From NCBI GenBank assembly GCA_030539495.1, contig JAUNRX010000007.1:1-56053 (forward strand): a stretch of DNA of 56,053 nt, given 5' to 3'. A program made the translations under genes and the position numbers. This DNA is from a bacterium (GTDB lineage Bacteria; Bacillota; Clostridia; Lachnospirales; Lachnospiraceae). This document shows, piece by piece, positions 18,613 through 22,286 of this stretch (the first letter of the stretch is position 1; each line of letters begins with the position of its first letter). Under the pieces are notes generated by a model, which saw only the letters and a program-made list of their open reading frames with translations, had not been told where the DNA came from and ran no database searches.

Positions 18613-19185
18613 TCACTTTATATAGAGCATGATCTTTTTTTGATGAACTGACTGTTCTACCAAAATTCTTCCTTCTTGCTCGGCCTTCTTCTCCTGGCTC
18701 CTAGTCATTTGTAATAGATTGCTGATCACTTTATCCACCCTGATCTTTATTGCATGTTCATTGTTAATCTCAATGCAGGACTTATGTATCGATTTTTCAT
18801 TTCCTTTTACAACCGGCTTTTCTTTGTCCTCTTGCAGCAGATAAGATATTTGTTTCTGGTCAATCATCTTTTTATTTCGTGAGAATAAAAGCTTGTCCAT
18901 TCCATACTGACGGCTTAATTCCTTGTCATTTTCTAAAAATTTTTGATACTCCTCTGGGGGAATCGAACTTGGATTTATTCTCTCATAGATTGTCAGATTA
19001 AGCGTATGCTTACATACCATACATTGATAAATCAGCCACACATCTACTCTGTTACCATTTGCATTTACTCGAAATGTATTAGTATTGATAAAATGTGACT
19101 TGCCGCCACATCCTGGACAGTTATGGATTACCTGATAGGATTCCTGGGGTACTATTTTATAACTTATTATTTTTGAATAGCTCAT
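18613..19185 (-). CDS. DUF1062 family protein
   Basis: This 190-residue cytosolic protein carries two CxxC pairs (CPGCGG near 24 and CMVCKH near 55) forming a probable zinc ribbon. An acidic and basic helical C-terminal half follows. QCMVCKHTLNLTIYERI is typical of DUF1062. The function is unknown. AAAGGAG lies eight bases before the ATG. Upstream lies an elaborate leader with a nine-codon ORF and competing hairpins, nearly matched by the leader of the next gene. This suggests expression controlled by translation of the leader. The 3' end meets the glycan operon's stop with a two-base gap. Confidence 0.85.
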   Translation of the reverse strand: MSYSKIISYKIVPQESYQVIHNCPGCGGKSHFINTNTFRVNANGNRVDVWLIYQCMVCKHTLNLTIYERINPSSIPPEEYQKFLENDKELSRQYGMDKLLFSRNKKMIDQKQISYLLQEDKEKPVVKGNEKSIHKSCIEINNEHAIKIRVDKVISNLLQMTRSQEKKAEQEGRILVEQSVHQKKIMLYIK

Positions 19186-19193
19186 ACGTGCAT

Positions 19194-19302
19194 CTCCTTT
19201 TATTAAAATCGGATCTGCAAAGGCTATTGCATGGTTTTATTTGCGATAGCCTCTGCTATGCAAACTGTACTGGTGTAGTCATATAATTCTCCTTTTTCTA
19301 TG
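19194..19302 (-). promoter_or_regulatory. Short-ORF leader of the DUF1062 gene
   Basis: On the minus strand this leader contains a ribosome site AAAAGGAG (19289-19296), a nine-codon ORF, and three related segments. Segment 1 (19255-19264) reads TTTGCATAGC and includes the ORF's stop. Segment 2 (19240-19250) pairs with segment 1 across four bases, or alternatively with segment 3 (19223-19232). CCTTT just after segment 3 can pair with AAAGG in the gene's own ribosome site (19194-19200). A TATAAT lies upstream at 19324-19329. The arrangement resembles translational attenuation. Confidence 0.5.
19256..19282 (-). CDS. Leader peptide MTTPVQFA
   Basis: The ORF is ATG, seven more codons and TAG, encoding MTTPVQFA. 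The ribosome site AAAAGGAG lies six bases upstream. The last codons TTT GCA TAG fall inside the first arm of the leader hairpin. The next gene's leader has an ORF of identical length ending in the same three codons, which argues against chance. Confidence 0.5.
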   Translation of the reverse strand: MTTPVQFA

Positions 19303-19367
19303 TATTTTCTAGCTTCTTTTTAAATTATATCTTTAAAAGAGGCTTGTCTCCACCTCAAATATTAGTT

Positions 19368-19413
19368 AAAAAAAGAATGAGCCGGCACCTTTTATATGCC
19401 AGCTCATTCTTTT
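19368..19413 (-). terminator. Terminator of the CD3324-type gene
   Basis: AAAGAATGAGC-GGC pairs with GCC-GCTCATTCTTT with one mismatch, followed on the minus strand by seven T residues. It overlaps the stop codon. Confidence 0.85.
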
Positions 19414-19687
19414 ATGCCACATTTTTCATTTCGCGTAAAATTCGCTGTATGCTTTTCTCCGATAAAAAATACTTTTCCGCCAGACTCATGACACACATTC
19501 CTGTTTGATAATCCTGATAAATACTCTTATTCCTCTTATCTAACTGCTGCCTGGCCTGTGTTTGCTGGCCCCATTCTTTCCTATTTCCTTCTTTTCTTGG
19601 AATGTAAAGCATCTCTCCATCCACATACTGTTGAATTAATTTAATTATTTCTATAGGAAGAATATCTTCCGCTTTTCTATAGCCCAT
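19412..19687 (-). CDS. CD3324 family HTH protein
   Basis: This 91-residue protein resembles the CD3324 family, which is related to Mor-type transcription activators. GYRKAEDILPIEIIKLIQQY opens it. SLAEKYFLSEKSIQRIL near the C-terminus is a clear helix-turn-helix. It probably binds DNA as a dimer, and its target is unknown. An AGGAGG ribosome site sits at 19693-19698. TTAGGA of that site is complementary to TCCTAA 12 bases further upstream, so initiation may be blocked in the default fold. Its leader resembles that of the DUF1062 gene. Confidence 0.75.
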   Translation of the reverse strand: MGYRKAEDILPIEIIKLIQQYVDGEMLYIPRKEGNRKEWGQQTQARQQLDKRNKSIYQDYQTGMCVMSLAEKYFLSEKSIQRILREMKNVA

Positions 19688-19692
19688 AATTG

Positions 19693-19808
19693 CCTCCTAA
19701 TTTTATATTCGTTAGGATTAGCACTGGCTATTCATCTATGTACTTCTAAATGCAATAGCAAGCGCTATGCAAACATAACATCTGTCCCCATATAACACCG
19801 CTCCTTTC
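19693..19808 (-). promoter_or_regulatory. Short-ORF leader of the CD3324-type gene
   Basis: The leader has a ribosome site GAAAGGAG (19801-19808), a nine-codon ORF, and TTTGCATAGC (19764-19773) pairing across four bases with GCTATTGCA (19751-19759). GCTATT can alternatively pair with AATAGC (near 19727-19732). A six-base perfect stem (19712-19717 with 19695-19700) hides the ribosome site of the gene. Order, spacing and sequence of the elements parallel the DUF1062 leader. Confidence 0.55.
19765..19791 (-). CDS. Leader peptide MGTDVMFA
   Basis: The ORF is ATG, seven codons and TAG, encoding MGTDVMFA, with GAAAGGAG nine bases upstream. It shares M-x-T-x-V-x-F-A with the other leader peptide and ends in the same TTT GCA TAG inside a hairpin arm. 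Confidence 0.5.
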   Translation of the reverse strand: MGTDVMFA

Positions 19809-19823
19809 ACTCTATCTATCTTG

Positions 19824-19852
19824 ATTTTACATAAACTTCATTAAAATCACAA
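19824..19852 (-). promoter_or_regulatory. Promoter of the CD3324-type gene and its leader
   Basis: TTGTGA (19847-19852) and TAAAAT (19824-19829) lie 17 bases apart. Transcription would begin near 19817, about nine bases before the leader ORF's ribosome site. Confidence 0.6.
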
Positions 19853-19907: not shown

Positions 19908-20552
19908 TTATTTCATTTCTACACTCCGTGCCTGCAAAACTTCTTCTGCCCATGGATCATGTGATGTAATAATCATTGTCTTCCCCATCTTTTGCAGCTG
20001 ACACAGCAGTTCCTGTACTTTTTTTACTGTTTTATTATCTAATCCACTAAATGGCTCATCAAAAATCAATACACTAGGATTTGCCGTAAGAACACTTGCA
20101 ATGGCTACCTTCTTTTTTTCTCCTGAGCTTAGTGTATAGGGTGCACGCTTCCTTAGTTTCTCCAGTTCAAATAAAGTAATGACGTCCTCTACCCGTGTCG
20201 TCACTTCATCTGAATTAAGGCCCATTTGTTCAGGCGCAAAGCTTAACTCCTCCTCCACACTTGCACAAAACAACTGTATTGTGGAATCTTGAAATACATA
20301 TCCAATCTGTTGATGAAACCACTTTGAGAATTGTTGGTCTCTAAGAAGCTCTTTTGTAACCTTATCTCCTTCAAAATAATAGTCTCCATACTCTGCAAAC
20401 AGCAAACCATTGATTATCTTTAATATAGTTGTCTTACCGCATCCATTAGGCCCGTTTAATAAAATACTTTCTCCCTTTTTAATATCAATCGAGAAATAAG
20501 ATACCACTGGTTCCTCTTCATAGGAAAAACAGATTTCTTCTAACTGAATCAT
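19908..20552 (-). CDS. cbiO: ECF-type Ni/Co transporter ATP-binding protein
   Basis: This 214-residue peripheral ATPase powers the metal transporter encoded upstream. GPNGCGKTT is the Walker A loop, SSGEKKKVAIA is the ABC signature and VLIFDEP is Walker B. It is somewhat shorter than the usual 270-residue CbiO and lacks the C-terminal extension. Its start overlaps the permease stop by four bases (ATGA type), showing coupling. The gene order M-Q-O is typical of group I energy-coupling-factor metal transporters. Confidence 0.9.
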   Translation of the reverse strand: MIQLEEICFSYEEEPVVSYFSIDIKKGESILLNGPNGCGKTTILKIINGLLFAEYGDYYFEGDKVTKELLRDQQFSKWFHQQIGYVFQDSTIQLFCASVEEELSFAPEQMGLNSDEVTTRVEDVITLFELEKLRKRAPYTLSSGEKKKVAIASVLTANPSVLIFDEPFSGLDNKTVKKVQELLCQLQKMGKTMIITSHDPWAEEVLQARSVEMK

Positions 20553-21292
20553 TTTTTATTCTCCTTGATTTTTCTATGTGTTACACGATACTCCCCACTG
20601 TATCCCCGACAGATCATTGCATCATACATTTCTTCACTCATTCTCTTAGACTTAATAAATGTAATCCCAAGAATGTTTGCTTGTTCTTTGCTCTTTTTTT
20701 TCTTTCTTCCAATAGAACGAACTTTCAATGCCTGTAACATATTCACACATTCTTCTCCCAATACTACAATATATTTTATGGTAAGATCAAAGGTAAACAA
20801 AAACAGATCTGGTATATGTACTTTTGAAAGTCCCTTTGTAATTTCATTCCACTTAACGGTTGCAGCAAAAGTATTTACATATAACAGGGTCACTGTAATT
20901 TTAAGCAGGATACGAATTACGGTAACCTGATGTCCTAAAAAATATGCCGGCAAAAGAATGACTACACTAATTAATTCTCCCATGCTTAATTTCTTTAATA
21001 TAATACCAATTGTTCTTGCCGATAGTAAGCTAATTCGTACCAATATGATAACAAGAAAAATAATCGGGATAAAAGAGTGCTCTGTCAATGCAACGATAGT
21101 TATTACAAAAAAAAGGACTGCCGTTTTTACGCCAGCCCTCCCCTCTCTTCTCTCTGGTCCATCCTCTTTAAAGTAATGAAGCAGAGAAAAGAGTTTTAAT
21201 AATGTCTTATCAATATAAAGGTGATTATCTTTGATTGGCTTGTACACTTCTTCTCTTTTTAGCCATTCTAGAGGCCTCTCTTTATCTTGCAT
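20549..21292 (-). CDS. cbiQ: ECF transporter transmembrane protein CbiQ
   Basis: This 247-residue protein has a long soluble N-terminus with LKRE and HLYIDKTLLKLF, about five membrane segments from 45 onward, and a C-terminal coupling region. ALKVRSIG and MYDAMICRGYSGEYR are the two Ala-Arg-Gly-type motifs that contact the ATPase. It links substrate capture by CbiM to ATP hydrolysis. It overlaps the CbiM-like gene by 11 bases and the ATPase gene by four. Confidence 0.9.
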   Translation of the reverse strand: MQDKERPLEWLKREEVYKPIKDNHLYIDKTLLKLFSLLHYFKEDGPERREGRAGVKTAVLFFVITIVALTEHSFIPIIFLVIILVRISLLSARTIGIILKKLSMGELISVVILLPAYFLGHQVTVIRILLKITVTLLYVNTFAATVKWNEITKGLSKVHIPDLFLFTFDLTIKYIVVLGEECVNMLQALKVRSIGRKKKKSKEQANILGITFIKSKRMSEEMYDAMICRGYSGEYRVTHRKIKENKK

Positions 21293-22286
21293 ACTTTCCC
21301 TTACTCTTCATAAAGCTACTGATAATTTTAAATAAGATTACTAAAATTGCAGTTCCTGCAACTGCACTCAAGATATAACCAAGCCATTCCGGCATTCCGG
21401 AAATCGAGTAATCCGGGAATATGCTATTAAATGTAAATCCGCTTTCCATCTTTGCTGGTGTATACCCTAATGCCTTTCCACCAGACATGACACTGACAAT
21501 TTCATCTGCACCCCATTCTCCCCATGCAGTTCCTGCTGCAAGCAGACCTAATGGTGTTAATGCGATTAATGCAAGTAATAACCCATATAAAGGTTTATAG
21601 TTCTTCTTAGTTTCCTGTCGTTTATAAATCAGTCCTGGTGACGTCTTTTCTACAAATTCCAATACTGCTACAGTTACTACCGCTTCTAAAACTCCTGCAA
21701 TTAATAAATGTCCAGCCAACATTGCTGGAATAGATACGTTCAAAGGATAAGGACAATAAAGGGCATGTCCAGCTGAATCTTGAAACAAGTAAGGCTGAAT
21801 TCCAAATTCAATTGCTGCACATAAAGCTGCTATATTTATACCTATATAGGAGCCAACTGCACGTCCAATATTCTTTCTTACTCTGGAAACATTTCCTTGT
21901 GTAATTGCTTTTGTTATGTAATATCCAACAAACGGTAGCACAAATGCCATATTAAAGCAATTTGCCCCAAATGCCAAAATCCCTCCATCTCCAAAGATTA
22001 ACGCTTGAATTAGGAGCGCTATCGTTACCGCAATACATGCCGCATACGGTCCACATAAAAGAGCAAGAAGGGTTCCTCCTACAATATGACCGGTTGTTCC
22101 TCCTACTAATGGTACATTAAACATCATTCCCAGAAAGGACAAGGCTGCCCCAACGCCGATTAAAGGCATTTTCTCCCTTGTCACTTCCAATCGTACTTTC
22201 TTAACGGATATGGCCCAAACTGGAACCATTGCTGCCGCCATTACTGCACAAGTAGATGGGCTTAAATAATTATCTGGTATATGCAT
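21282..22286 (-). CDS. cbiM: ECF transporter substrate-capture protein (CbiM/NikM with CbiN/NikN-like C-terminus)
   Basis: This 334-residue membrane protein starts MHIPDNYLSP. In solved NikM/CbiM structures the N-terminal amine, His2 and His67 hold the metal, and both histidines are present here (His67 in TTGHIVGG). After about seven membrane segments (to about 225) a C-terminal extension of about 100 residues ends in a single membrane helix. It resembles the separate CbiN/NikN subunit, so this appears to be a fusion. Nickel and cobalt cannot be distinguished by eye. A GGGGGAG ribosome site precedes the ATG. The gene is divergent from a metal-sensor-like gene. Confidence 0.88.
   Translation of the reverse strand: MHIPDNYLSPSTCAVMAAAMVPVWAISVKKVRLEVTREKMPLIGVGAALSFLGMMFNVPLVGGTTGHIVGGTLLALLCGPYAACIAVTIALLIQALIFGDGGILAFGANCFNMAFVLPFVGYYITKAITQGNVSRVRKNIGRAVGSYIGINIAALCAAIEFGIQPYLFQDSAGHALYCPYPLNVSIPAMLAGHLLIAGVLEAVVTVAVLEFVEKTSPGLIYKRQETKKNYKPLYGLLLALIALTPLGLLAAGTAWGEWGADEIVSVMSGGKALGYTPAKMESGFTFNSIFPDYSISGMPEWLGYILSAVAGTAILVILFKIISSFMKSKGKYAR

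Follow-up and report, generated by a model that had tools for sequence, protein, structure and literature searches.

Why do two neighbouring genes of unrelated families carry matching short open reading frames (ORFs) in their leaders, and where on such a leader would a ribosome have to stand for the gene to be translated? The genes, a DUF1062 gene and a helix-turn-helix (HTH) gene of the CD3324 family, lie on the minus strand of a 56,053-nucleotide (nt) stretch from a Lachnospiraceae bacterium (contig JAUNRX010000007.1, assembly GCA_030539495.1), which as a whole we call the window. Comparison with related genomes indicates that the leaders very probably belong to a conserved family of leader-ORF attenuators. 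Folding with ribosomes placed along the leader makes it moderately probable that the family acts as a translational attenuator on both genes, opening on early stalling and closing at termination. An earlier note on this DNA had proposed translational attenuation by a short leader ORF with competing hairpins, and conservation and covariation in relatives back that proposal.

We found both leader ORFs where the earlier note had placed them, on the minus strand like every feature given below. Each has 8 codons, the ribosome site AAGGAG and the ending TTT GCA TAG: MTTPVQFA* at 19256..19282 (ATG side 19282) before DUF1062 and MGTDVMFA* at 19765..19791 (ATG side 19791) before the HTH gene, both read directly. 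MTTP-type leaders precede DUF1062 in other genomes as well. The TTT GCA TAG end forms the first arm of a hairpin, here called ALT, with a four-base spacer as had been claimed (AGAG before DUF1062, GCTT before the HTH gene). ALT reads TTTGCATAGC-agag-GCTATCGCAAA at 19240..19264 in the DUF1062 leader and TTTGCATAGC-gctt-GCTATTGCA at 19751..19773 in the HTH leader, where TGCATAGC stands opposite GCTATTGCA; both were read directly and are supported by covariation, for the HTH hairpin over 35 sequences. The HTH ribosome site (TTAGGAGG to ATG GGC TAT, 19679..19700) is hidden by the expected six-base-pair stem, TCCTAA on TTAGGA, and the cover of the DUF1062 site (AGGAG to ATG AGC TAT, 19177..19198) is present but weaker, ATCC on GGA. 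From the first base of the leader stop to the gene ATG there are 73 or 80 nt in the two units. The pattern TTYGCATAGCNNNNGCTAT matches twice in the 3.96-Mb genome, in these two leaders only, and a reversed control pattern matches 0 times.

The element recurs in relatives. Of 145 related genomes, 18 have DUF1062 (PF06353) and 41 have CD3324 (NF040785), 36 of the latter above the curated cut-off; across the class, 49 of 291 genomes have CD3324, 42 above that cut-off. We sorted the leaders by eye into types I, II and III, and reading upstream assigned the element (types I and III) to 36 of 78 CD3324 loci and 9 of 18 DUF1062 loci, the CD3324 count being taken without L073, L115 (a near copy of L114), L133 (fused frame) and L023 (which coincides with L001). 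At 39 of these 45 loci, the arm stop ends an ORF that has a ribosome site, compared with 1 and 6 for the other two frames. Most leaders are 8 codons long (27 of 40), and the stop codon is TAG in 35, TAA in 4 and TGA in 1. One DUF1062 gene elsewhere (L003) has a divergent leader, MITPVQMCSYSIQ, that retains the MxTPVQ start and not the FA-stop arm.

A covariance model, R1, was made from 22 leaders and run over the 145 genomes. It gave 34 matches at E < 1e-3, of which 32 lie immediately 5′ of a same-strand CD3324 or DUF1062 gene and 2 are antisense shadows; as many of the matches are training sequences, this shows only that a strong match is absent at other genes in those genomes. Both window leaders are themselves among the 22: the DUF1062 switch RNA at 19183..19267 scores 70.1 bits (E 8.8e-16) and the HTH switch RNA, up to the ATG, at 19685..19776 scores 68.4 bits (E 2.5e-15) by cmsearch. 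Weak matches elsewhere (E about 0.001-0.02; L074-L082 were looked at) seem by eye to be chance except L078, whose match overlies no visible leader, and L073 (E 1.5e-5) is a CD3324 leader.

Four pairings recur among the leaders: ALT, P1, P2 and P3. They can be described with four proposed regions, in which region 1 would be the 3′ end of the roughly 8-codon leader ORF (TTTGCA plus stop), region 2 GCTATTGC, region 3 ATAGCC..TTTGC..ATCC, and region 4 the gene ribosome site with codons 2-3. ALT joins the leader end to region 2. P1 joins the leader end to the GCAAA between the gene ribosome site and the ATG, where each of the three central pairs with the leader TTTGC can form in 18-20 of 22 sequences. 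P2 joins the stop region and region 2 to region 3, and P3 is the anti-ribosome-site stem. ALT and P2 share a strand and are mutually exclusive, and region 3 (ATAGCC..TTTGC) is also able to pair with the gene ribosome site and codons 2-3. Folds cover the ribosome site by P1, by P3 or by the region 3-region 4 pairing. In the window, region 3 of the HTH leader with the anti-ribosome-site (AATAGCCAGTGCTAATCCTAA, 19712..19732) pairs in alternative folds either with the 5′ arm of P2 or with the ribosome site plus codons 2-3, these codons being complementary to region 3. Region 3 of the DUF1062 leader (GCAATAGCCTTTGCAGATCC, 19211..19230) is the P2 partner or, in masked folds, the partner of the ribosome site and codons 2-3; there ATGCA pairs with the leader TGCAT (P1) and GCTAT with region 3.

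The pairings covary. In 22 sequences, 88.9% of ALT cells are paired, with 11 both-side changes; for P1 and P2 together the figures are 84.1% and 25. In 35 sequences, ALT reaches 89.2% with 27 both-side changes and P2 87.0% with 30. None of 500 shuffles, nor any slid version, matched ALT, P1 with P2, or P2 in percentage paired or in covariation score, so the compensatory change that the earlier note had called for in the arms is present in ALT and P2. In an average-product-corrected scan of 3450 column pairs, P2 20-74 ranks 1 and P2 21-73 ranks 10, and ALT 8-31, 7-32 and 9-30 rank 3, 4 and 23. RNAalifold predicts P2 unaided. The competing downstream partner proposed for the second hairpin arm is likewise borne out, region 2 also pairing with region 3 in a helix (P2) that covaries in relatives.

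These results bear on the idea that the leaders are ligand-binding riboswitches or RNA thermometers in which the short ORF is incidental. The junction-like fold, the alternative pairings and the sequestered ribosome site would all suit such an RNA. However, no conserved unpaired core was seen in the alignments A1 and A7, and an Rfam scan of the window gave 0 matches at curated score, those at E up to 10 all lying far below the curated scores. Moreover, the frame of the ORF is conserved and its stop varies in letters yet remains a stop. We consider this explanation very unlikely.

If the ORF is part of the device, does its peptide matter? The 40 leaders encode 36 distinct peptides, hence they hold no common arrest sequence, and a conserved nascent-peptide arrest sequence was not found among them. 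The pattern M-x-T-x-V-x-F-A, taken from the two window leaders as the shared feature, is therefore not what is conserved; Ala is the last residue in 35 of 40 leaders, preceded by Phe in 13, and five end otherwise (AQ, AS). The terminal Ala codon lies within the RNA arm. Three specific schemes were rejected: sensing of RF1 through UAG (5 of 40 leaders have TAA or TGA instead), Phe-specific attenuation (just 13 of 40 end in Phe-Ala), and a ribosome bypass that would take off at the GCA preceding the stop and land at the one preceding the gene (the GCA-to-ATG spacing does not preserve frame).

Type II leaders give a second view of the same question. These lie 5′ of CD3324 and have a longer leader ORF that runs across a GCAAAG arm (L043, L102, L105, L112, L113, L114, L035, L037, L038, L041 and L127); a subset of the paralogue matches was fetched, and L100, L108, L091 and L109 were left out of this reading as their gene was not located. 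We found the GCAAAG arm translated in differing frames, as LHAKP, SSMQRL and SSEQRL. Since the arm is read in different frames, it looks as if the RNA and not the peptide is conserved in type II leaders.

To model ribosome position, we folded the 40 leaders with a ribosome footprint from P-15 to P+15 masked and read out the cost of opening the gene ribosome site through the ATG. Free RNA costs 8.2 kcal/mol to open, compared with 5.3 for shuffled leaders. A P-site 18 nt before the stop changed the cost by a mean of -1.8 kcal/mol (25 of 40 leaders drop by >1, 2 rise by >1). With the P-site on the last codon it changed by +2.8 kcal/mol (30 of 40 rise by >1, 2 go the opposite way). Shuffled leaders shifted by about 0, and the two positions differed by >1 kcal in 36 of 40 real leaders versus 29 of 160 shuffled ones. 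In 35 of 40 leaders, the site is most open with the P-site 21-15 nt before the stop. A P-site 24 nt before the stop, which is the start codon of an 8-codon ORF, gave a mean of +0.5, or -0.65 with a larger footprint. For the DUF1062 leader of the window, the cost runs from 6.6 kcal/mol free to 4.3 at codon 4 and 10.3 at the end, and the HTH leader closes, at 7.3-8.9 kcal/mol from codon 5 on. Among the type II leaders, 8 of 14 modelled drop by >=3 kcal/mol at some codon. In the model, then, a ribosome paused at codons 2-4 is predicted to open the gene ribosome site, and one on the last codons or the stop to close it.

This prediction runs opposite to the classical scheme of end-of-leader arrest, in which a nascent peptide ending in Phe-Ala, or a drug acting with it, would stall the ribosome at the stop and so open the gene. 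Such an arrest would fit an ORF that terminates exactly in the arm, mostly with Ala, and there is precedent in the MsrDL leader, at whose end erythromycin arrests the ribosome according to work cited in a passage of PMC12121999. Yet the residue before Ala is variable, the minority of leaders with other endings would be exceptions, the type II arm is read in different frames (HAK, SSMQRL, SSEQRL), and the modelled last-codon ribosome closes the site in three-quarters of the leaders. A trigger at the Phe-Ala-stop end, which the earlier note had favoured, is disfavoured because a ribosome on the last codon or the stop is predicted to close the ribosome site, and we regard end-of-leader arrest as unlikely.

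Under early-stall opening, we propose the following mechanism. At rest, or when ribosomes arrive normally at the stop, region 4 would be kept closed; the stop-codon stretch and region 2 can pair with region 3, for which region 4 is an alternative partner, and region 1 has two possible partners, region 4 (P1) and region 2 (ALT). If a ribosome were held at codons 2-4, it would cover region 1 and leave the P2 strand free, so that P2 forms. P2 formation would remove region 3 from region 4, and the gene would be translated.

The closing strand seems to extend into the genes. In masked folds, region 3 pairs with the ribosome site, the ATG region and codons 2-3 (ATAGC with GCTAT). DUF1062 and CD3324 are unrelated families, and at loci with the element both start Met-(Ser/Gly/Arg/Asn)-Tyr. 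We found codon 2 to be NGC in 34 of 36 CD3324 genes with the element and in 0 of 42 without it (Fisher p 4e-20, uncorrected for descent). NGC is kept there though it encodes Ser, Gly or Arg; further along the same CD3324 genes, 94 of 623 Ser, Gly and Arg codons are NGC. One compensatory pair is seen in D_L012, with TAGT in region 3 and AACTAT in the gene. From these alignments, codons 2-3 of both genes seem to belong to the switch RNA.

Several observations weigh against this reading of the leaders, beginning with its comparative basis. The shuffle nulls take no account of descent. The count of both-side-changed ALT pairs was reached by 81 of 500 shuffles with 22 sequences and by 48 of 500 with 35, and the count of further ALT pair types by 15 and 63 of 500, respectively; two of five ALT measures are thus unexceptional, and some slid versions equal or exceed ALT on those counts. 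One slid P2 has 9 both-side-changed pairs versus 8 for the true P2. In the column-pair scan, 20 of the top 25 pairs lie outside every named helix, and low variability puts many of the ALT and P2 pairs far down the ranking. The helix of region 3 with codons 2-3 does not covary beyond shuffles, its variation being too low. Six of the 45 loci have no called ORF: L132, which nevertheless has an ORF in the leader list; L036, L040 and L046, with an in-frame ORF and a poor ribosome site; and L090 and L106, where none was seen on reading. Because the weaker covariation measures of ALT and P2 were recounted, we slightly reduced our confidence in early-stall opening.

The folding model adds points of the same kind. 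The 40 leaders modelled had been picked for having an ORF, so L036, L040, L046, L090 and L106 are outside the set. A change in footprint size moves the opened window by about one codon, which leaves room for stalling at the start codon. The HTH leader of the window has no modelled opening, its minimum being 4.7 kcal/mol compared with 4.8 for the free RNA. Opening is not clear in the type II leaders L041, L105 and L114, and the P3 stem is able to persist in the ON fold.

How does such a leader compare with known systems? Drug-inducible attenuators of the erm and cat type have a leader ORF, competing stems and a hidden ribosome site, and the leaders described here are like them in having a leader ORF, mutually exclusive stems and a hidden ribosome site. 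They differ in that no arrest peptide is shared, the stop codon lies inside the switch arm, the gene codons 2-3 appear to be included, and the ON state is predicted at codons 2-4. Hence, the family works like an attenuator and, because no conserved arrest peptide was found, does not fall in the erm-like arrest-peptide group. A passage of PMC12190993 describes FusB as probably attenuated in the erm/cat style.

Closer in some respects is the upstream ORF (uORF) toiL of E. coli topAI, a multi-drug sensor in which, as set out in part of PMC12121999, pairing of the uORF region is proposed to close the ribosome site and stalls at various codons relieve it. The likeness is a short ORF and a ribosome site closed by pairing. 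The differences, so far as that part of the article goes, are other genes and another host, and that toiL pairs along the ORF, so that stalls anywhere are thought to relieve it, whereas here the late codons and the stop are predicted to close the site and a third strand (P2/ALT) would select the state. The same passages attribute start-codon stalls to the cplR, vmlR and vga(A) uORFs; these share an early-stall response, and the ABC-F guards recall two CD3324 loci with ABC-F-like next genes, but by that description they differ, a start-codon ribosome here giving little modelled opening. The uORFC-6-1 motif, found in part of PMC8632094, has a uORF with covarying RNA downstream, as here, 5′ of hflX, a ribosome-rescue gene, in Bacillales; by its description there, that motif differs in having a conserved Arg-Leu-Arg peptide and in preceding another gene. 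CD3324 is absent from the main text of that article, a structured-RNA survey of 26 genomes, in the portions consulted. A description of this leader family was not found in the open-access literature searched.

What signal would hold a ribosome at the early codons? The leader peptides offer one indication. Pro occupies codon 4 in 16 of 40 leaders, out of 17 Pro overall, and 0 of 2000 permutations reach 16. Codon 3 is Arg or Lys in 17 and Ser or Thr in 14 of 40, each enriched (0 of 2000 permutations; descent uncontrolled). Codon 4 falls in the window of deepest opening, and Pro there is a slow codon. According to work cited in a passage of PMC12121999, chloramphenicol stalls ribosomes after Ala, Ser or Thr and macrolides stall them at R/K-X-R/K; any tuning of the sensing codons to these contexts is speculation.

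The genes that follow CD3324 offer another. As the next gene we took an ORF of at least 100 codons with a ribosome-like motif and a start within 900 nt; it was found in 63 of 76 loci and in 13 not, 62 were scanned (L001 omitted), and some lie too far away for one operon. Among the 62, the next ORF is DUF1062 in 10, a GNAT (Acetyltransf_1) in 10, an RNHCP-domain zinc protein in 5 (L036, L040, L045, L046 and L048), a FusB-type EF-G-binding protein in 4 and an ABC transporter ATPase in 2. CD3324 and RNHCP overlap or are <=15 nt apart in four loci and are 242 nt apart in L045. The FusB-type genes are at L083, L086, L088 and L113, one of them on an annotated Pseudalkalibacillus plasmid. The two ABC neighbours score 342 and 287 bits for ribosomal protection-like ABC-F, under the cut-off of 380, with sequences cut by the locus ends, and the L105 neighbour resembles RlmB/TrmH/NshR rRNA methyltransferases, under their cut-offs. 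The FusB-type, ABC-F-like and rRNA-methylase-like neighbours fit the ribosome-targeting signal suggested earlier. Many other kinds of gene follow CD3324 too, and many of these (the 10 GNATs among them) have no known ribosome role, which counts against early-stall opening by such compounds.

The DUF1062 product itself may resemble ribosome factors. The gene (18613..19185; PF06353, 120.5 bits) encodes 190 amino acids with an N-terminal CxxC..CxxC zinc ribbon, whose Cys 23, 26, 55 and 58 are invariant in 14 sequences, and a C-terminal S4-like motif, IRxDKxI..L..SRSQ.....G.I (residues about 148-179). Aligned by hhalign with S4 domains of the same genome, the C-terminus reaches 80.7% (E 1.3e-5). 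Ribosome factors of the RqcP and MTRES1 type carry an S4 domain, and the DUF1062 product would be like them in its C-terminal S4-like RNA-binding motif; it differs in the added zinc ribbon, and its Pfam S4 match is not significant (E 0.19 in 2 of 14 sequences; MTRES1_C 0.0045 in 1 of 14). The AlphaFold model (predicted local distance difference test, 53) is too poor for a fold search, and PDB sequence searches gave zero relatives. In the extracts of open-access literature consulted, DUF1062 has a single mention in each of two transcriptome papers. Together, the neighbours and the S4-like motif point to a role in translation for the products.

We infer that in nature the switch responds to early stalls brought about by ribosome-targeting compounds or a like translation stress, and that the gene products help ribosomes; such compounds appear the likeliest natural inducer. 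Another signal could feed the same device. A general gauge of translation supply, responding to leader initiation, amino-acid shortage or slow Pro codons and to no drug, would share the mechanism of early-stall opening and differ in the signal alone. The diverse peptides and the frequent Pro at codon 4 agree with it, but neighbours of the FusB, ABC-F-like and rRNA-methylase-like kinds suit ribosome inhibitors better, and we keep it as a minor possibility.

A broader reading can be put forward tentatively, and we lean somewhat away from it. The leaders may form a class of early-stall sensors that is independent of the peptide and widespread among the relatives searched, with the ORF of about 8 codons serving as a ruler by which any compound that stops the ribosome two to four codons in would open the switch, a stop in the switch arm that closes it actively, and gene codons 2-3 as the sequestering strand, on a hidden CD3324-led translation-protection regulon. 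Motifs at the sensing codons, Pro at the fourth and Arg/Lys or Ser/Thr at the third, may tune leaders of this kind. If this were true, DUF1062 and RNHCP would be new ribosome-acting factors beside the FusB-type, ABC-F-like and rRNA-methylase-like members, and the leader would be a drug sensor independent of an arrest peptide with normal termination as its OFF signal, which would make a simple design for ribosome-inhibition reporters. DUF1062 and CD3324, both families of unknown function, gain a testable role in translation stress, and the leader supplies a sequence signature for locating further such genes.

Could the repeats instead be DNA operators of the CD3324 protein? The HTH gene (19412..19687) encodes 91 amino acids and is called CD3324, a Mor-like family, by NF040785 at 120.4 bits (cut-off 65) and PF08765 at 31.5 bits (cut-off 24.9). 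A fold search with CD3324 gave nothing below E 0.001, with Mor and C of phage Mu in the first five (E 0.2). A TGAGGT box (19352-19357) adjoins a promoter-like TGGAGA-17-TATAAT of the DUF1062 unit (19324..19357, by sequence scan), and the box occurs in 11 of 43 leader upstream stretches (5 of 9 for DUF1062, 6 of 34 for CD3324; shuffled mean 1.4, max 5); it is absent from the upstream stretch of the HTH unit. It is possibly an activator site, perhaps for the Mor-like CD3324 protein. If this relative of Mor regulated itself and DUF1062 through the repeats, with RNA pairing secondary, then inverted repeats 5′ of both genes, the Mor and C fold matches and the TGAGGT boxes would be expected, but an operator needs neither pairing to the ribosome site, nor long-distance covariation, nor a conserved ORF. 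We judge an operator in place of the attenuator highly improbable; as a second layer at the TGAGGT box, a CD3324 operator may be added to it. In the extracts of open-access literature on the Mor transcription activator, nothing was taken to bear on these leaders, and a search with CD3324 and RNHCP returned only matches off topic by title (nematodes, chemistry), none on the RNHCP domain.

The two units appear to be distinct. A likely intrinsic terminator, AAAAGAATGAGCtGGCA..TGCCgGCTCATTCTTTTTTT at 19368..19413, lies 3′ of the HTH gene as a hairpin followed by a T run, read directly; the terminator scanner, which permits loops of 3-8, did not report the hairpin at 19413-19368. Because a hairpin and T run end the HTH gene, we suggest that the DUF1062 unit is transcribed separately from the HTH unit. 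A promoter-like site of the HTH leader, TTGTGA-17-TAAAAT at 19824..19852, is a consensus match alone and would start transcripts 5′ of the leader ORF; over the stretch there are 18 promoter-like sites compared with 16.9 expected from shuffles, so there is no excess. Searching the contigs of the genome with the HTH protein gave two loci only, and an alignment of DUF1062 against viral contigs gave one locus. In a second kind of CD3324 (L124, L136, L138, L140 and L141, including contig 206 of the window genome), no leader was seen on reading. Beside the pair lies a set of ATP-binding and permease genes (19908-22286, minus strand) that we take to resemble an energy-coupling factor (ECF)-type metal (cobalt or nickel) transporter.

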